Source of the DNA: Geobacteraceae bacterium
GTDB taxonomy: Bacteria; Desulfobacterota; Desulfuromonadia; Geobacterales; Geobacteraceae
Assembly: GCA_023701365.1 (NCBI GenBank)
Contig: JAMPXD010000007.1
Span: 1 to 44,754 of the forward strand
Length of the DNA stretch: 44,754 nucleotides
Direction: 5' to 3'
Shown: piece by piece, positions 3-13,425 of the stretch
Position numbering within the stretch: the first letter of the stretch is position 1
Layout: every line of letters starts with the position of its first letter
Made by a program: the position numbers and the translations under genes
The notes under the pieces: model-generated
What the model saw: the letters and a program-made list of their open reading frames with translations, nothing else
The model's database searches: none
What the model was told of the DNA's origin: nothing

Positions 3-1745
3 ATGGGGTGCTACGACGACCTCGATCTCGGGGATACCTTCTTCCTCTGGGGGGCCAACATGGCCGAGGCGCATCCGGTGCTGTTCTCCCGCCTGCTCGA
101 CAACAAGCTGAAAAATCCCGCTGTAAAGATCATCGACCTCGCCACCCGGCGGACCCGCACCACCCAGTTGTCCGACATGTACGTGCCGTTCCGGCCCCAG
201 ACCGACCTGGCGCTCCTGAACGGGATCGCCCATGTCATCGTTCGGGAAAAGCTCTACGACGACGCGTTCATCCGCAAGCACGTCGTCTTCAAGAAGGGGA
301 AGGAGAACATCGGCTACGGCCTGGAGGACAAGTTCAAGTTCGATGACGAGCCGAAGGGGATCACCTTCGAGGAGTACCAGGAGTACCTGAAGACCTACAC
401 CCCGGAGCATGTCTCCAGGCTCTCCGGGGTCCCGGCCGAAACGGTGGTCGAGCTGGCGCGCATGTACGCCGACCGCAAGCGCAAGGTCAACACCCTCTGG
501 ACCATGGGGTTCAATCAGCACTCCCGCGGCACCTGGGTCAACAACCTGGCCTATAACCTCCACCTCCTCACCGGCAAGATCGGTCGTCCCGGCGAGAACC
601 CGCTGTCGCTCACCGGCCAGCCCTCCGCTTGCGGCACCGCCCGCGAGGTGGGGACCTTCGGCCACCGGCTCCCCGCCGACATGGTGGTGATGAACCCGGA
701 GCACCGGGAGAAGACGGCCAAAATCTGGGGGGTCCCGGCCGCGAAGATCCCGGCCAAGCCGGGCCCGCACGCCACCGAGATGTTCAAGGCCCTTGACCGG
801 GGCGACATCAAGGTGATGTGGATCCAGGTGACCAACCCGTTCCAGTCGGCCCCCAACCTCAGCCGCTACCGCAAGGGGGCCCGCAAGGAGGGGCGCTTCA
901 TCGTGGTCTCCGACATCTACCCGACCCGTTCCACGGAGCTCGCCGACGTGATCCTCCCCTCCGCCTCCTGGGTGGAGAAGGAGGGGATGTTCGGCAACAC
1001 CGAGCGCCGCAACCAGCACTGGTTCAGGATGGTGGAGCCCCCCGGCGAGGCGAAGAACGACCTGTGGCAGACCATGGAGCTGGCGCGACTGCTCGGCCAC
1101 GGCAACCTGTTCCCCTACAAGGAGGTGGAGCGGGAGATGTGGGAGGAGTACCGCCAGTTCACCATCGGCACCGGCAAGGACCTGGCCCCGTACGAGGCGT
1201 ACGTCAAGGCGCGCGGGCTGCGCTGGCCGGTGATCGACGGCAGGGAGACCCTCTGGCGCTACGCCGAGGGGCACGACCCCTACGTGAAGAAGGGGGAGGA
1301 GCTCAGGTTCTACAAGAACAAGGCGGCCGACGGCAAGGCGGTCATCTGGGCCCGCCCCTACGAGCCGGCCGCCGAGTCCCCCGACGGGGAGTACCCCTTC
1401 TGGCTCTGCACCGGCCGGGTGCTGGAGCACTGGCACACGGCGACCATGACCGGCCGGGTCCCCGAGCTGAAAAGGGCCTATCCCGCGGCGGTGGTGGAGA
1501 TCCATCCCGAGGACGCGAAAAGGCTCGGGCTGAGGAACCGGGACAAGGTGCGGCTCTCCTCGCGGCGGGGCACCATAGTGCTGCCGGCGGAGCTGAACGG
1601 CAGGGGGAAACCGGAGAAGGGGAACGTCTTCGTCGCCTTCTTCGACGAGACCAAGCTGATCAACGAGCTCTGCATCGACGCCTACTGCCCGATCTCCAAG
1701 GAGCCGGATTACAAGAAGTGCGCGGTGAAAATCGAAAAGGCGTAA
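3..1745 (+). CDS. napA: Periplasmic nitrate reductase catalytic subunit NapA (5' truncated by window edge)
   Basis: This is the C-terminal 580 residues of a molybdopterin oxidoreductase that reduces nitrate to nitrite in the periplasm. The frame is open from the first bases, so the start, the Tat signal and the N-terminal [4Fe-4S]/Mo-ligand region lie outside the window. Family hallmarks include FLWGANMAEAHP, TGKIGRPGENP, the LTGQPSACG segment, SASWVEKEGMFGNTERR, and the C-terminal molybdopterin-dinucleotide domain with LCTGRVLEHWHTATMTGR. The WHTATMTGR and FGNTERR signatures point to NapA rather than formate dehydrogenase. It is followed by napB, a napF-like ferredoxin and an octaheme nitrite reductase, which fits nitrate reduction to ammonium. 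The NapA call is strong; only the missing 5' part prevents a check of the cofactor ligands. Confidence 0.93.
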   Translation: MGCYDDLDLGDTFFLWGANMAEAHPVLFSRLLDNKLKNPAVKIIDLATRRTRTTQLSDMYVPFRPQTDLALLNGIAHVIVREKLYDDAFIRKHVVFKKGKENIGYGLEDKFKFDDEPKGITFEEYQEYLKTYTPEHVSRLSGVPAETVVELARMYADRKRKVNTLWTMGFNQHSRGTWVNNLAYNLHLLTGKIGRPGENPLSLTGQPSACGTAREVGTFGHRLPADMVVMNPEHREKTAKIWGVPAAKIPAKPGPHATEMFKALDRGDIKVMWIQVTNPFQSAPNLSRYRKGARKEGRFIVVSDIYPTRSTELADVILPSASWVEKEGMFGNTERRNQHWFRMVEPPGEAKNDLWQTMELARLLGHGNLFPYKEVEREMWEEYRQFTIGTGKDLAPYEAYVKARGLRWPVIDGRETLWRYAEGHDPYVKKGEELRFYKNKAADGKAVIWARPYEPAAESPDGEYPFWLCTGRVLEHWHTATMTGRVPELKRAYPAAVVEIHPEDAKRLGLRNRDKVRLSSRRGTIVLPAELNGRGKPEKGNVFVAFFDETKLINELCIDAYCPISKEPDYKKCAVKIEKA

Positions 1746-1843: not shown

Positions 1844-2137
1844 ATGAATTATTTGATCCGGATTCTGGCAGTTGCAGCGCTGATGAGCTTCCCGGCGTTG
1901 CCGGCGCTGACCGCCGAGGGAGTGCCGACCGAACAGGAGATCCGGCAGGCCGAGGGGGAACCGCCGGTGATCCCGCACCGGGTAAAAGACACCGACATCG
2001 CCGGTGATTGCCTGAAGTGCCACGAGAAGGGGAAGAAGGGCGCCCCGGTGACCTCTCATCCCGAGCGCAAGAGCTGCACCCAGTGCCATGTCCGGGGAGA
2101 GGTCAAGGCGTCGAAGCGGGCAAATAAGCGAAAATGA
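1844..2137 (+). CDS. napB: NapB-like diheme c-type cytochrome
   Basis: A 97-residue exported cytochrome c. It has an N-terminal signal peptide (hydrophobic ILAVAALMSFPALPAL, cleavage near LTA-EG) and two CxxCH heme sites, CLKCH and CTQCH. The IPHRVKD segment before the first heme and CTQCHV at the second match the NapB family, the electron-transfer subunit of periplasmic nitrate reductase. It is short for NapB (usually about 130-150 residues), mainly because the inter-heme segment is trimmed. The start ATG has the strong ribosome-binding site AGGAGGA at 1832-1838. The same frame is open far upstream inside napA, but that part is only a shadow of napA. Its stop overlaps the next ATG as ATGA. 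Confidence 0.85.
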   Translation: MNYLIRILAVAALMSFPALPALTAEGVPTEQEIRQAEGEPPVIPHRVKDTDIAGDCLKCHEKGKKGAPVTSHPERKSCTQCHVRGEVKASKRANKRK

Positions 2138-2676
2138 CCATGGACCGCAAGACCTTTCTCAAGAAGGGGATACTCTCCCTTGGGGAGATGTTTCTCCACC
2201 CCGGCTCCCTCATGGCGGGGCCGGCAGAGGAAGAGCCGTTGCGCCCTCCCGGTTTCGCTGAGGAAGCGGTCGCTTCCTGCGCCGGATGCGACCGCTGTCT
2301 GAACGCCTGCCCCGGGGAGCTGCTGTTGAAACGGGAAGGGATCGAAGGGCCTCTTTTCGATCCGTCCCGCGGCGGCTGCACCTTCTGCCATCTCTGCGCC
2401 GGGGCTTGCCCCGCCGGGGTGCTGGCCTTTCCGGAGTCCGGAAAGCCGCTGCGGCTCGGCCTGGCGGTCCCCGACAACGGGCATTGCCTGGGGCAGCGCG
2501 GCGGCTGTTTCACCTGTCTTGAGCAGTGCCCGCAGGAGGCGATCACCATTGAGCCGGGACAGGGGCTCAAGGTGGATCACGACAGGTGCGACGGCTGCGG
2601 GGTCTGCGAGCATGTATGCCCGTTGGCGCCGGCGGCTTTAAGGGTTAAGCGGCTGGAAACCGTGGAAAATGCCTGA
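2134..2676 (+). CDS. napF: NapF-like ferredoxin with four [4Fe-4S] motifs
   Basis: A 180-residue iron-sulfur protein with four cysteine clusters in order: CAGCDRCLNACP, CTFCHLCAGACP, a wider-spaced CLGQRGGCFTCLEQCP, and CDGCGVCEHVCP. It begins MDRKTFLKKG, a degenerate RRxFLK-like stretch, followed by only a weak hydrophobic segment, so export is doubtful. NapF proteins help NapA maturation or electron delivery; NapG is a periplasmic relative with a true Tat signal. The first ATG overlaps the napB stop (ATGA); a second ATG two codons later is also possible. Its place between napB and the nitrite reductase supports a nitrate-respiration role. NapF is the best label, but NapG cannot be fully excluded. 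Confidence 0.75.
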   Translation: MTMDRKTFLKKGILSLGEMFLHPGSLMAGPAEEEPLRPPGFAEEAVASCAGCDRCLNACPGELLLKREGIEGPLFDPSRGGCTFCHLCAGACPAGVLAFPESGKPLRLGLAVPDNGHCLGQRGGCFTCLEQCPQEAITIEPGQGLKVDHDRCDGCGVCEHVCPLAPAALRVKRLETVENA

Positions 2677-2805: not shown

Positions 2806-4416
2806 ATGGGGAACAAAAAGTTGGCCGTATTGGCCGTCGTTGGCGGAACGGCCGCCCTGCTGTCGCTGCCGGTGTTCACCTCGGCGGCAAAGGAGAAACC
2901 GGCGGCAAAGATGATCAATGACGGCAGGGGCAAATGCTACGAATGCCACGATGAGATCAAGGCGATGAAGGAAGGGTCCAGGCATGCGAAGCTAGCCTGT
3001 GCAACCTGTCACGACAAGCTCAAGGAGCACTTGGCCAATCCGGAGGTGAAGCCGGTCACCCCCATCGACCAGGCGCTCTGTGGCAAGTGCCACAAGGACC
3101 AGTACGACAGTTTCTACCAGGTGAACTACGAGAACCCCTGGAAGAAGGAGAAGAGCGCCCCGAACGGTCGCTCCCCGATGCAGGAGAAGCTCCTCGCCCA
3201 GCACGGCTTCAACAAGGAGCATAACGAGCCGCGCGGCCACGCCTTCATGGTGATCGACCAGTTCCAGGTCGACCGCTTCGCCGGCGGCCGGTTCCAGTTC
3301 AAGAAGGGGCTCTGGGGGATGGACGCTACCGGCAAGACCTGGGACGTCCTGACCGACACCGGCAAGGACCTTCCCGAGACCGCCAAGGCGGGGAACCCGA
3401 CCTGTATCCAGTGCAAGACCTCCGACCACATCCTGAAGTGGAAGTTCCTGGGTGACAAGGACCCGCGGGCCAAGTGGGACCGGACCTCGAACGTCATCGA
3501 CGTTGCCAGGGACACCAACAATCCGGTGGGGTGCATCCACTGTCACGACCCGCACGGCGCCCAGCCGCGAGTTGTGCGCGATGCCCTGATCCAGGCGGTT
3601 GACAAGGACAGGGGAGGGAACATCTTCGCCAGGGACGGCAAGACCGATCTTAAAGTGGTCGACTTCCGCGGTTTCCGCAAGATCGGCGTGATGCAGAAGA
3701 CCGATTCCCGCCAGATGTGCGCCCAGTGCCATGTGGAGTACAACTGTAACGCCGGTTCCCAGTGGAGCGACGGCGGCAAGGTGGGCTATGACAACCAGCG
3801 CACCAACCACTTCCCGCTGAAGAACGCCAAGGACCTCCTGGAGCACTACAAGAAGCTCGACTTCTTCGACTACAAGCACGAGGTGACCGGAGCGCGGCTG
3901 ATCAAGATGCAGCACCCCGAGGCGGAAGCCTATGCGGGAAGCGTCCACGACCGGGCCGGGGTCCAGTGCCACGACTGCCACATGCCGAAAGTAAAGGGGA
4001 AGAGCGGCAAGACCTTTACCACCCACGGCGTGGTCAAGCCGATCGACCACGTGAAGGAGGCGTGCCTGCGCTGCCATCCGAAGAGCACAGTGGCGCAGAA
4101 GAAGTGGATGATCGAGACCTCCCGCAATTACATCAAGGGGAAGATGCGCAAGTCCGAGTACTGGATGGGCAAGCTGATCGACAGCTACGCCAAGGCGAAG
4201 AAGGCCGGGGTCGACGAGGCGGTCCTGGCCGAGGCGCGGGCCAGGCATGAAGAGGCCCATGTCCTCTGGGAGTTCTGGACCGCCGAGAACAGCGACGGCT
4301 GGCACAACCCCGAACTGGCGAGGGAGACCCTGACCGCTTCCATCACCGCCTCGAAGGCGGGGATAGCGGCCCTCACCAAGGCGATGGAGCCGAAGAAGGA
4401 GGAGCCGAAAAAGTAG
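2806..4416 (+). CDS. Octaheme cytochrome c nitrite reductase (ammonia-forming, ONR type)
   Basis: A 536-residue secreted multiheme cytochrome with a signal peptide ending near TSA-AK. Eight heme-binding motifs are visible: C44YECH, C65ATCH, C92GKCH, C200IQCK, C243IHCH, C305AQCH, C388HDCH and C420LRCH. The fourth is CxxCK, the lysine-ligated catalytic heme of the NrfA/ONR superfamily. Three extra N-terminal hemes make it ONR-like rather than pentaheme NrfA. Probable catalytic residues are R143, Y312 (CHVEY) and H370 (QHPE). The 58-residue Tyr-His spacing equals that of Thioalkalivibrio ONR (Y303/H361). C314, two residues after Y312, sits where that enzyme has a Tyr-Cys crosslink. The role is six-electron reduction of nitrite to ammonium in the periplasm. 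The ribosome-binding site is AAAGGAG. It follows the nap genes after a 129-base gap. Confidence 0.93.
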   Translation: MGNKKLAVLAVVGGTAALLSLPVFTSAAKEKPAAKMINDGRGKCYECHDEIKAMKEGSRHAKLACATCHDKLKEHLANPEVKPVTPIDQALCGKCHKDQYDSFYQVNYENPWKKEKSAPNGRSPMQEKLLAQHGFNKEHNEPRGHAFMVIDQFQVDRFAGGRFQFKKGLWGMDATGKTWDVLTDTGKDLPETAKAGNPTCIQCKTSDHILKWKFLGDKDPRAKWDRTSNVIDVARDTNNPVGCIHCHDPHGAQPRVVRDALIQAVDKDRGGNIFARDGKTDLKVVDFRGFRKIGVMQKTDSRQMCAQCHVEYNCNAGSQWSDGGKVGYDNQRTNHFPLKNAKDLLEHYKKLDFFDYKHEVTGARLIKMQHPEAEAYAGSVHDRAGVQCHDCHMPKVKGKSGKTFTTHGVVKPIDHVKEACLRCHPKSTVAQKKWMIETSRNYIKGKMRKSEYWMGKLIDSYAKAKKAGVDEAVLAEARARHEEAHVLWEFWTAENSDGWHNPELARETLTASITASKAGIAALTKAMEPKKEEPKK

Positions 4417-4446: not shown

Positions 4447-4481
4447 AGCCCGGATCGGTTAAACCGATCCGGGCTTTTTTT
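4447..4481. terminator. Bidirectional rho-independent terminator
   Basis: A 12-bp perfect stem, AGCCCGGATCGG and CCGATCCGGGCT, with loop TTAAA. It is preceded by seven A and followed by seven T, so it can work on both strands. It lies 30 bases past the nitrite reductase stop and downstream of the convergent typA. Confidence 0.95.
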
Positions 4482-4600: not shown

Positions 4601-6409
4601 TCAGGCCCCCTTGCTCGTCCGCTTCCTCCTGTTCGGGTCGAGCTCCTTCTTCCGGAGCCGGATCGACTTGGGGGTGACCTCCACCAACTCGTCGTCGTCG
4701 ATGAACTCCAGCGCCTGCTCCAGGGTGAGGTTGCGCGGCGGCGTCAGCTTGATGGCGTCGTCCGAGCCGGAGGCGCGGACGTTGGTGAGCTTCTTCCCCT
4801 TGCAGGGGTTGACGTCCAGGTCGTTGTCCTTGGCGTGCTGGCCGATGATCATCCCGCCGTAGACCTCCACGCCGGCGCCGATGAACAGCACCCCGCGCGG
4901 CTGCAGGGCGTCCAGGGCGTAGGCGGTGGTCTCGCCGTGCTCCATGGCCATCAGCACGCCGTTCTTGCGCCCGGGAATATCTCCCCGGTAGGGGGCGTAT
5001 TCATGGAAGGTGTGGGTGAGGACGCCGGTGCCGCGGGTCTCGGTCAGCACTTCGCCGCGCAGTCCGATCAGGCCGCGGGCCGGGATCACGAATTCGAGGC
5101 GGATGGTCTCGCCCATGGGGCTCATGGCAACCATCTCCCCCTTGCGCGGCCCCATCTTCTCGATGATGGCCCCCTGGTACTCGGCCGGCACGTCCACCAC
5201 CAGGTATTCCATCGGCTCCAGCCTCTTGCCCCCCTCCTCGCGGTAGATCACCTCCGGCTTGGAAACCGCCATCTCGAAACCTTCCCGACGCATGTTCTCG
5301 ATCAGGATGGAGAGATGCAGCTCGCCGCGGCCGGAAACCTTGAAGGTGTCGGCGTTGACGGTATCCTCGACGCGGAGCGAGACGTTGGTGCGCAGCTCCT
5401 TGTCCAGCCGTTCGCGGATGTTGCGCGAGGTGACCAGCTTCCCTTCCCGGCCGGCAAACGGGGAGTTGTTGACGATGAAATTCATGGAAATGGTCGGCTC
5501 GTCGATGGAGACATAGGGGAGCGGGATCGGGTTTTCCGCGCTGGCCAGGGTCTCGCCGATACCCACCTCGTCGAAACCGGCCACGGTGATGATATCGCCG
5601 GTGCTGCCTACGGCCACATCCACCTGCTTCAGCCCTTCGTAGCCGAGGAGCTTGGAGATTCGCCCTTTGACGATGCTGCCGTCACGCTTGATATGGGCGA
5701 TGGTTTCGCCGGCTTGCACTCTTCCGTTGAACACCTTGCCGGTGGCGATCCGGCCGATGTAGTCGTTGTAGTCGATATTGGTGACCAGCATCTGGAACGG
5801 CGCATGCGGGTCGCCGCCGGGAGGGCGGACATTGCTCTCGATCACCGCGAACAGCGGCTCCATGCTGGTGGAGGCGGCATTCATGTCGAGCATGGCGTAG
5901 CCGAGCTTGGCGCTGGTGTAGACGATGGCGAAGTCGAGCTGCTCGTCCGAGGCATTGAGCTCGCAGAACAGGTCGAACACCATGTCCACCACCTCGCTGG
6001 GGCGCGCTCCCGGCCGGTCGACCTTGTTGATCACCACGATCGGCTTCAGCCCCAGGTCGAGGGATTTCTTCAGGACGAAACGGGTCTGCGGCATGGGGCC
6101 GTCGAGGGCGTCCACCAGCAGCAGCACCGAATCGACCATCTTCAGCACCCGCTCCACTTCGCCGCCGAAATCGGCATGGCCCGGGGTGTCGACGATATTG
6201 ATCTTGTAACGGCCGTGGTGGACCGACAGGTTCTTGGAAAGGATGGTGATCCCCCGCTCCTTTTCCAGGTCGTTGGAGTCCATCACCCTCTCGGTGATGG
6301 CCTCGTTCTCCCGGAAAACCCCGGCATGGCGCAGCATGGCGTCCACCAGGGTGGTCTTGCCGTGGTCTACGTGGGCGATAATGGCGATGTTTCTGATTGA
6401 TTCCTGCAT
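4601..6409 (-). CDS. typA: Ribosome-associated translational GTPase TypA/BipA
   Basis: A 602-residue translation-factor GTPase. G motifs are AHVDHGKTT near the N-terminus, [11 protein letters not shown] and [10 protein letters not shown], followed by EF-G-like domains and the BipA-specific C-terminal domain ([39 protein letters not shown]). BipA binds the ribosome and supports 50S assembly and growth under stress or cold. I start it at the ATG of [15 protein letters not shown] (6409), which has AAGGAG upstream; an in-frame ATG 36 bases further upstream would add a tail foreign to the family. It is monocistronic and diverges from the HEAT-repeat gene. The 353 bases between the two (6410-6762) hold the promoter region listed next and no gene that I can support. 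Confidence 0.97.
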
Positions 6410-10669: not shown

Positions 10670-11545
10670 TTATTTAACTGGAATAAATGTCTTGTAATGA
10701 TTAGGCGTATAAAAAACCTCGCCGCCTTGTCCAGTTACAACCCGTTGCGGACCAGGTCCATTTGTGTTTGGTGTAGGGACTACATGCTCTTTGTAGTATC
10801 CTGAGTTTTTCCGCGGAAGTAGGCCCTCTCGATTCTCGAAAACGCCACCGTCATTGCCATGAGGATATTTAACCCCGCTATTTATTCTTTTTAAAGTAGG
10901 TTGTAAATCCACAGTTCCTCGTCCAATAACTTGTCCACGAGATTCAACAGTTACGCCGCTTATAAATCTAGATGATGAAATCTCTGCGGAAGTGGTGCGT
11001 ATTCCACTTCCTCCCCCTCCTGTGGGCCTTGCCATCGTGCCCTCAGAAGCGCTACGAATACCACCGCCACCAATCAAAACTTTGTTAGTTCCCATTTCTT
11101 CGGCTGTCAGCAGAGGCGCCTTCCCATCCGGGTCGATATACCGATAGGGATTGTTCAACGCATACGCATAGGTATTCAGCCGTTGCGGATTTAGCAACAT
11201 CTTCTCATTCGTCTTGCTGGTCTTCGGGTCTACCGCCCGCACCGGGTCGGGCGCGATGAACCTGCCGGTCTTCGCATCCATGTAACGAGCGCCGAAGTAG
11301 GACAACCCGGTCTCCGTATCCTTCTCCTTGCCGACGAACCGCTTGTCATTCACCTGCGTCTGTGTGACGCTCTGCTCCTCCCCAAAGGGCCTGTAGTCCG
11401 CCTTCCAGACCACCTTTCCGGTCGAGTCAGTCATGGCAAGAGGTGTCCCTGCATGGTCGGTGTGATAGAAGAAGACCTGCTCGGCTGCAAACGCGGCCTG
11501 TGCAGTCACCAGGATCATTAACAGTATCGACAATACTCTTTTCAT
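10670..11545 (-). CDS. Secreted RHS-core 'tip' protein with barnase/RNase Sa-like toxin domain
   Basis: A 291-residue protein. Residues 1-20 are a Sec signal peptide (cleavage at AFA-AEQ). Residues 21-143 are an RHS-associated core: FFYHTDHAGTPLAMTD, WKADYRPFGEE, GLSYFGARYMD, GRFIAPDP, NNPYRYIDPDG. A Gly/Ser-rich linker follows. Residues ~226-291 match microbial guanyl-specific ribonucleases (ENREGLLPRKNSGYYKEHVV; RVVTGQGGEVFYTPNHYKTF). The catalytic set E253, R268 and H283 is intact, with spacing close to E54/R69/H85 of RNase Sa. It carries no cage repeats; a normal Rhs has the core fused to the cage. The start ATG 11545 has AAGGAG eight bases before it. An in-frame ATG at 11569 overlaps the protease stop, so the genes are probably coupled. 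The barstar gene follows. Confidence 0.92.
   Translation of the reverse strand: MKRVLSILLMILVTAQAAFAAEQVFFYHTDHAGTPLAMTDSTGKVVWKADYRPFGEEQSVTQTQVNDKRFVGKEKDTETGLSYFGARYMDAKTGRFIAPDPVRAVDPKTSKTNEKMLLNPQRLNTYAYALNNPYRYIDPDGKAPLLTAEEMGTNKVLIGGGGIRSASEGTMARPTGGGGSGIRTTSAEISSSRFISGVTVESRGQVIGRGTVDLQPTLKRINSGVKYPHGNDGGVFENREGLLPRKNSGYYKEHVVPTPNTNGPGPQRVVTGQGGEVFYTPNHYKTFIPVK
11117..11485 (-). repeat. RHS-core coding repeat, direct copy of 16670-17038
   Basis: The core-coding parts of the two tip genes are strongly similar at DNA level. They include runs of tens of identical bases, for example across the segment coding KEKDTETGLSYFGAR, whereas the toxin ends are unrelated. Both copies lie on the same strand about 5.6 kb apart, so recombination between them could swap or delete toxin ends and everything between. 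Confidence 0.8.
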
Positions 11546-11565
11546 CGCATCTTCTCCTTTCAACA

Positions 11566-13425
11566 TCACTTGATGGCCAGCTTGTCAACCGTGAGCGAAC
11601 CGCCGGTAATAGTCAGCGTTCCGGTCACTACGGTCGTTTCCGTGTCCGTGGTGAAGTTGCCGTTGTAACCACCGGTCAGTGATACAGTGACAGGGTTGAC
11701 AAGGTTCAGGCCTTCAGTAAAACCGACTGCCTGGGACTGGATGACCTGGCCATCCTGCGCGGCATCGAAAGCGGCTTGCAGGGTGGAGTAGGATACAGGG
11801 GGACTCCCGAGAATCTGCACTCCATTGACCGGCGTAAGCGTAATTGCTACAAGATTGTTTTTGGTAACGGTATTACTGCCGCTTGCGTTGGAGGCCTGCA
11901 AGGTCACCGAGTAGGTTCCCGGCTGCGTGTAGGTGTGCGAGGGGCTTTGCAGGCTGCTGGTCGTGCCGTCGCCGAAGTTCCATGACCATGTATCGGCCCG
12001 CAAGGAGGTGTCGGTGAAATCTACCGTAAAGGGGGCTATTCCTGTAGTGGGAAAGGCTGAGTATCCGGCAACAGGGGAGATGATGGTAAAATCGGCTGAT
12101 ACAGTCGCGTAATCATTCAACGATATCGTGCAGGCGCCGGTACCGCTGCACCCTCCTCCGGACCAGCCGGTGAAGGCGGAATCAGCATCGGGTGTTGCCT
12201 GTAACGTGACCGCAGAGCCTAAACCGAAGAAACTGCTACAGGTGCCGCCGCAGGATATGCCCTCAGGGGTGCTTGTGACTGTCCCTCCGCCTGTTCCGCT
12301 GTTGTTGACGGTCAGGCTGACAGGATTCCAGACGGTGATGTAGTTGCTCTTCATCACCGTGCTGTTGCCGCTCGTTCCGATGGCTTGCATGGTTACAGAG
12401 TACGTTCCCGCATGGTCATAGGTGTGAGAAGGGTTCTGCAGGTTGCTTGCAGGGCTGTTATCCCCGAAGGTCCACACCCAGGCGTTGGCCCGCAGGGAAT
12501 TGTCGGTAAAGTTCACCGACAGCGGCACAAGCCCGGAAGTGGGGGTAGCGGAGAAATCGGCTGCCGGTGGCAGAAGCGTGAAAACGGGGGTAATGGTTGT
12601 ATCTGCGGTCAAGGTTACCGCACAGGCACCGGTGCCGCTACATCCTCCGCCGAACCAGCCGGCAAAGGTCGAATTTGAATCGGGTGCCGCCTGCAACGTG
12701 ATCCCTGTTCCTGTAGGAAAGTATGTGCTGCAACCGCTGACGTAGTTGACGCACGTTATGCCGGAAGGGGTGCTGGTGACAGTGCCGCCGCCGTTGCCGG
12801 TCTTACTGACGGTAAGCTTATTGGTTGCGCCCTTGAGAGTGCTAGTCCATGTATGGTGGTCCGGCGCGTAGACGACCCAACTGTAAGGTTGAAGCGTATC
12901 TCCGTTCCCCGGCCAAGGATCCATGTACCAAAGGTTTTGACCGTCCAGTTCATACCCGTCTCCGACAAGGAAGTGCCCACCTCCTGATGGCCATCCGAAC
13001 CGCATAAGGAAGGGCCTTCCCGAGTTGATCTCAGCAACACAAGTCGTTTGAGATAGAGCAGATGCTAACGCATTTGTATTCACACCCCAGTGCGTCAGAA
13101 TACCCTGCAAGCTACCTCCTGGCACATCGTGATCATTGTTGGGACCCCACATATAATTCCACCAGTTACAGGAAGTGTTTGCCCAATAGAATATTCCGTT
13201 CCCACAACAATCGCTTCTTCCCCAAGCCCAGTTGGCAATATCACATTGGGCCACAACTGTGCCATAGTATTCAAGCATCGCCTGACTCGAACCCGCCCAG
13301 CACCATTGGTCATGCTCCTGGATCTTTTCAGGGACGCTCAGATGGATATCAATGCTGAAGACCGAGGGCACGTGAACAAGTCCTAAGAGGGCCGATAAAT
13401 AAATCGGCATTATGAATTTCTTCAT
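11566..13425 (-). CDS. Secreted papain-like cysteine protease with B-repeat and PKD domains
   Basis: A protein of about 619 residues. A signal peptide (residues 1-24, ending SVFS) is followed by a papain-like C39/C70-type protease domain. The likely triad is C42 (in HDQWCWAGSSQAMLEYYG), H151 (GGGHFLVGDGYE) and D169 (WYMDPW). Then come a B-repeat (GCSGTGACAVTLTADTTITP), a PKD domain (FGDNSPASNLQNPSHTY), a second B-repeat and PKD, and a C-terminal module of about 85 residues ending LTITGGSLTVDKLAIK. The B-repeat, PKD and C-terminal parts are close to those of the RHS protein at 17166-21818. A start at 13434 (MREMKK) is equally possible. Its stop overlaps an in-frame ATG of the toxin gene. Possible roles are toxin processing, a second effector, or a carrier that replaces the RHS cage. 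Confidence 0.88.
   Translation of the reverse strand: MKKFIMPIYLSALLGLVHVPSVFSIDIHLSVPEKIQEHDQWCWAGSSQAMLEYYGTVVAQCDIANWAWGRSDCCGNGIFYWANTSCNWWNYMWGPNNDHDVPGGSLQGILTHWGVNTNALASALSQTTCVAEINSGRPFLMRFGWPSGGGHFLVGDGYELDGQNLWYMDPWPGNGDTLQPYSWVVYAPDHHTWTSTLKGATNKLTVSKTGNGGGTVTSTPSGITCVNYVSGCSTYFPTGTGITLQAAPDSNSTFAGWFGGGCSGTGACAVTLTADTTITPVFTLLPPAADFSATPTSGLVPLSVNFTDNSLRANAWVWTFGDNSPASNLQNPSHTYDHAGTYSVTMQAIGTSGNSTVMKSNYITVWNPVSLTVNNSGTGGGTVTSTPEGISCGGTCSSFFGLGSAVTLQATPDADSAFTGWSGGGCSGTGACTISLNDYATVSADFTIISPVAGYSAFPTTGIAPFTVDFTDTSLRADTWSWNFGDGTTSSLQSPSHTYTQPGTYSVTLQASNASGSNTVTKNNLVAITLTPVNGVQILGSPPVSYSTLQAAFDAAQDGQVIQSQAVGFTEGLNLVNPVTVSLTGGYNGNFTTDTETTVVTGTLTITGGSLTVDKLAIK

Follow-up and report, generated by a model that had tools for sequence, protein, structure and literature searches.

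A nap-linked octaheme nitrite reductase of Geobacterales and the Tyr-x-Cys pair in octaheme and pentaheme nitrite reductases

The window analysed here, a Geobacteraceae contig of 44,754 nucleotides taken at its full length, encodes an octaheme cytochrome c nitrite reductase (ONR) that we regard with high confidence as an ordinary Geobacterales ONR, an orthologue of the Trichlorobacter enzyme, paired with Nap and predicted to convert nitrite to ammonium, in which Tyr312 and Cys314 are very probably bonded. The survey around the ONR matters more than the window protein itself. The same Tyr-x-Cys pair (Y-x-C) was encountered in pentaheme, CxxCH-type NrfA enzymes carrying the sequence HVEYYC, which are common in Acidobacteriota and Planctomycetota. 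Features of the window and of the loci discussed are compiled in Table 1.

Table 1. Features of the window and of related loci; positions refer to the window unless preceded by a locus.
Feature	Position	Strand	Basis or remark
napA, 3' part, periplasmic nitrate reductase	3..1745	+	PRK13532, 794 bits; gene cut by contig start
Small secreted diheme cytochrome, NapB-like	1844..2137	+	PF03892, 28.5 bits, weak (cut-off 25.1)
4Fe-4S ferredoxin-type protein, NapF/NapG kind	2134..2676	+	TIGR00402, 66.6 bits, below cut-off of 102.2
onr, octaheme cytochrome c nitrite reductase, 536 aa	2806..4416	+	PDB 8rv0, E 3.6e-232; 2ot4, E 4.6e-154; PF02335, 218 bits
Putative Sec-type signal peptide, residues 1-28 (MGNKKLAVLAVVGGTAALLSLPVFTSAA)	2806..2889	+	Read from sequence, without signal-peptide predictor
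Heme 1 motif CYECH	2935..2949	+	
Heme 2 motif CATCH	2998..3012	+	
Heme 3 motif CGKCH	3079..3093	+	
R157, expected counterpart of catalytic Arg131 in Thioalkalivibrio ONR	3274..3276	+	Invariant in relatives; offset as for R143 = Arg117
Heme 4 motif CIQCK, residues 200-204, active-site heme	3403..3417	+	Lys ligand K204 = Lys188
Heme 5 motif CIHCH	3532..3546	+	
Heme 6 motif CAQCH	3718..3732	+	
Y312-N313-C314, counterpart of cross-linked Tyr303/Cys305 in Thioalkalivibrio ONR	3739..3747	+	Alignment
Q369-H370, counterparts of Gln360 and catalytic His361	3910..3915	+	Alignment
Heme 7 motif CHDCH	3967..3981	+	
Heme 8 motif CLRCH	4063..4077	+	
Intrinsic-terminator-like hairpin and T run, directly 3' of onr	4448..4481	+	Read from sequence
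HVEYYC NrfA, Geothrix	L128:5749-7317		nrfH-like gene directly upstream, 5216-5785
HVEYYC pentaheme loci	L128, L129, L133, L139-L141, L145-L174, L205-L207, L212, L216		
ONR with HVDYAC and KIRHPE	L069:6001-7608 and L030		Identical proteins, one Geobacterales lineage
ONR loci with CX4CH heme 8	L040, L042, L044, L045, L047, L050, L051, L053, L085, L100, L101, L109, L112		

The onr reading frame starts with ATG, preceded by an AGGAG element, and the putative signal peptide implies a periplasmic location of the product. Eight heme motifs were located, at residues 44, 65, 92, 200, 243, 305, 388 and 420, which sets the protein outside the pentaheme enzymes with their five c hemes. The mature protein matched octaheme nitrite reductases among the PDB sequences over its whole length. 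Motif positions and full-length match together uphold the earlier note, which had described an octaheme nitrite reductase with CxxCK as the fourth of eight hemes.

In the PDB ranking, 8rv0 was best and 2ot4 scored lower (E-values in Table 1), while pentaheme NrfA reached 2.5e-27 or worse. The octaheme cytochrome c nitrite reductase of entries 8rv0, 8rvm and 8rxu, which we take to be TaNiR of Trichlorobacter ammonificans, shares with the window ONR the eight hemes, CxxCK at heme 4, the sequence CAQCHVEYNCN and QHPE. At the protein level it differs by sequence divergence alone, the near-identical locus L038 being 66% identical to the window protein. Pentaheme NrfA has in common with the window ONR the PF02335 domain and, around the distal site, CxxCH-V-E-Y and QHPE, but it carries five hemes instead of eight, usually has Phe where the ONR has Cys, and forms a separate clade. 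The window protein grouped with the ONRs and separately from pentaheme NrfA in a 56-row tree (support 100/100), and the ONR clade stayed at 100/99 in a tree of 68 rows from which the trait columns had been removed. An ONR was present in 36 of the 48 genomes of the family; in one published study the Geobacter sulfurreducens enzyme served as reference for non-halophilic ONRs (PMC5433712).

In some ONRs, belonging to several families and to Mucispirillum, the heme 8 motif is CX4CH (CLSAKCH, CLTSDCH). Loss of heme 8 in these proteins is thus only apparent.

Residue-by-residue comparison with the Thioalkalivibrio ONR was made on the phmmer alignment to 2ot4, which covers residues 43-528 (E 4.6e-154) at about 49% identity. 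The alignment equates K204 with residue 188, E311 with 302, Y312 with 303, C314 with 305, K367 with 358, Q369 with 360 and H370 with 361. C314 is therefore placed at the active-site position and not away from the tyrosine, in agreement with the earlier assignment of Y312 and C314 to Tyr303 and Cys305, and the Tyr-His spacing, claimed to be identical, was counted as 58 in both chains. The distal-site Arg, Tyr and His are all present, Tyr and His being mapped directly and Arg157 by offset and invariance, and the Ca-site residues Glu311, Lys367 and Gln369 are conserved. The window ONR thus has in common with the Thioalkalivibrio ONR (2ot4, 3f29 and others), whose host is haloalkaliphilic (PMC5433712), the catalytic residues, including the counterparts of Tyr303, Cys305, Gln360 and His361. 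No residue required for the known Tyr-Cys link is missing. According to Trofimov and colleagues (2012), the same tyrosine of the Thioalkalivibrio ONR is reportedly also bonded to Gln360, a residue overlooked in the earlier note, the counterpart of which is kept as Q369.

To place the pair in its family, relatives were gathered from 48 genomes of the family, 395 genomes of the phylum and a one-genome-per-species collection. Y-x-C was found in all 113 distinct ONRs covering the site (identical rows removed), where the patterns used for the species collection, C[AG]QCHVEY and WTAENSDG, favour the Tyr and do not require the Cys. A hunt for ONRs without the Cys among these 113 sequences returned none. 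The middle residue varies: N is the commonest, and A, T, I, S and V follow. As Y-x-C is fixed in ONRs, its presence here confirms ONR membership and gives no separate information, and the crosslink prediction likewise follows from family membership.

Two deep octaheme relatives (L121 and L122, one of them from Verrucomicrobiia), with 30-33% identity, keep both CxxCK and Y-x-C; their branch is long and joins the ONR clade at its base.

The Tyr-Cys link has been described as an ONR feature (PMC12285233), and by analogy with the Thioalkalivibrio enzyme Y312 is very probably joined to C314 by a thioether bond. We consider it unlikely that Cys314 is unbonded or only partly bonded to Tyr312 and is kept in this ONR for some other reason: a covalent bond is not readable from sequence and in the literature consulted the crosslink is documented for Thioalkalivibrio only (PMC12285233), but Y-x-C is invariant in ONRs across many phyla, the residues flanking the pair match those of the Thioalkalivibrio ONR exactly (CAQCHVEYNCN in both), and C314 is the sole non-heme Cys of the window protein, just as Cys305 is in the aligned Thioalkalivibrio chain. 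An AlphaFold model of the window protein, built from an 11-row alignment, was set aside, its mean pLDDT being 57.6 and residues 310-315 scoring below 50.

With regard to gene order, the napA 3' part is followed by the genes of the NapB-like diheme protein and the NapF/NapG-like ferredoxin, 129 bases, onr and the hairpin; as the window is the whole contig, the 5' part of napA is missing. This partial nap cluster directly upstream, in a host that is a member of Geobacterales, bears out the earlier description of a nap-linked enzyme in a Geobacter-like organism. A Nap-linked ONR in Geobacterales is correct, and of a kind already known. In T. lovleyi the ONR gene lies immediately downstream of nap, and the ONR of T. 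ammonificans is likewise partnered with Nap (PMC11972089). Since a nap-adjacent Geobacterales ONR has already been published (PMC11972089), the linkage is not a new prediction. Among relatives, nap linkage is variable and not general: NapA was found within 6 kb upstream of the ONR in L059, L064, L066 and L081, and was not found within that distance at many other ONR loci. For the ONR of the nearest relative (G035, 85% identical), no Nap-like ORF was noticed by eye in the 12 kb upstream.

At that locus (L217, reverse strand 11159-12032) the place taken by nap in the window, directly upstream of the ONR, is occupied by a six-heme CxxCH cytochrome.

On the basis of homology, residue identity, gene order and the lack of any other detectable cytochrome c552 gene in the assembly, the following route is the most likely one. 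The nitrate reductase Nap, encoded by the adjoining genes, would convert nitrate to nitrite, and the secreted ONR would reduce nitrite to ammonium with six electrons at the Lys-ligated CxxCK heme 4, to which electrons would be handed on by the seven remaining hemes, three of them N-terminal. The distal Arg, Tyr312 and His370 would donate protons, a Ca site is predicted, and the Tyr-Cys bond would tune the tyrosine. For the window ONR we infer nitrite-to-ammonium activity, which is almost certain, as well as Ca binding, electron supply and the covalent bond.

TaNiR has been characterised biochemically and its ammonifying role in vivo proven (PMC12142623). That another substrate (hydroxylamine or sulfite) or detoxification outweighs respiratory nitrite ammonification in vivo could be argued from the reduction of both compounds by the Thioalkalivibrio ONR (PMC8840924) and from ONRs frequently not adjoining nap. 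We give this slightly less weight still than an unbonded Cys314, given the proven role of TaNiR, the position of onr directly 3' of the nap genes and a PF02335 search of the assembly (90.4% complete) in which onr was the sole match and no pentaheme NrfA was detectable. Respiratory nitrite ammonification stays the preferred role.

Among the 16 pentaheme NrfA sequences fetched as distant relatives, Phe replaces the Cys in 13, and the other three, from Geothrix (L128), Holophagaceae (L129) and a Planctomycetota bacterium (L133), have HVEYYC instead of HVEYYF. A DNA pattern for C[AG]QCHVEYYC matched in 39 of 396 genomes of the Geothrix phylum, and the reversed control pattern gave zero among the matches listed. 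All 30 HVEYYC loci that were read out encode five CxxCH motifs and have QHPE intact. With patterns open to both residues, the matched codons were counted in 149 genomes from each of two phyla: in the Geothrix phylum 17 encoded Cys and 20 Phe, and in that of L133 the figures were 16 for Cys and 17 for Phe. The HVEYYC enzymes formed one clade within NrfA (support 99/98, 56 rows), which stayed at 96/97 in the tree of 68 rows after removal of eight columns around the trait.

A tree uniting all Y-x-C proteins was rejected with p-AU 0.0015, a value accompanied by the program's warning of long ONR-NrfA branches; inheritance of the NrfA Y-x-C from an ONR ancestor was discarded on this test, made on 68 rows with the trait columns removed. 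A tentative reading, to which we give somewhat less than an even chance, is that the Tyr-Cys modification evolved twice, in all ONRs and in the one HVEYYC clade of pentaheme NrfA, and would be a repeated solution among ammonifying nitrite reductases and no octaheme speciality. No literature joining NrfA, Geothrix, cysteine and tyrosine was found, which is weak evidence of novelty.

A further variation concerns the Gln360 position. The ONR of L030 and L069, a single MAG-derived lineage, has Asp instead of Glu before the Tyr and Arg in place of Gln360, so that a Tyr-Gln bond is not formable. Fifteen Geobacterales pentaheme NrfA sequences with HV[TS]Y and IRHPE have Arg at the position matching the L069 Arg. 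Reviews report for G. lovleyi an NrfA that does not depend on Ca and has Arg in the Ca region, a type with four or more origins within NrfA (PMC12285233, PMC8840924); we infer that the Arg of these sequences corresponds to that in the G. lovleyi NrfA structure, and the L069/L030 ONR may possibly be Ca-independent.

For the organism, these findings add a further Geobacterales genome to those carrying this known enzyme class, and they support the Nap and ONR route of nitrate ammonification in an assembly where onr is the sole cytochrome c552 gene found. For the family, the HVEYYC and HVEYYF NrfHA enzymes offer a natural comparison for the role of the tyrosine modification, and the ONR with Arg for Gln360 offers a second one, in which the Tyr-Cys bond should be possible and the Tyr-Gln bond not.
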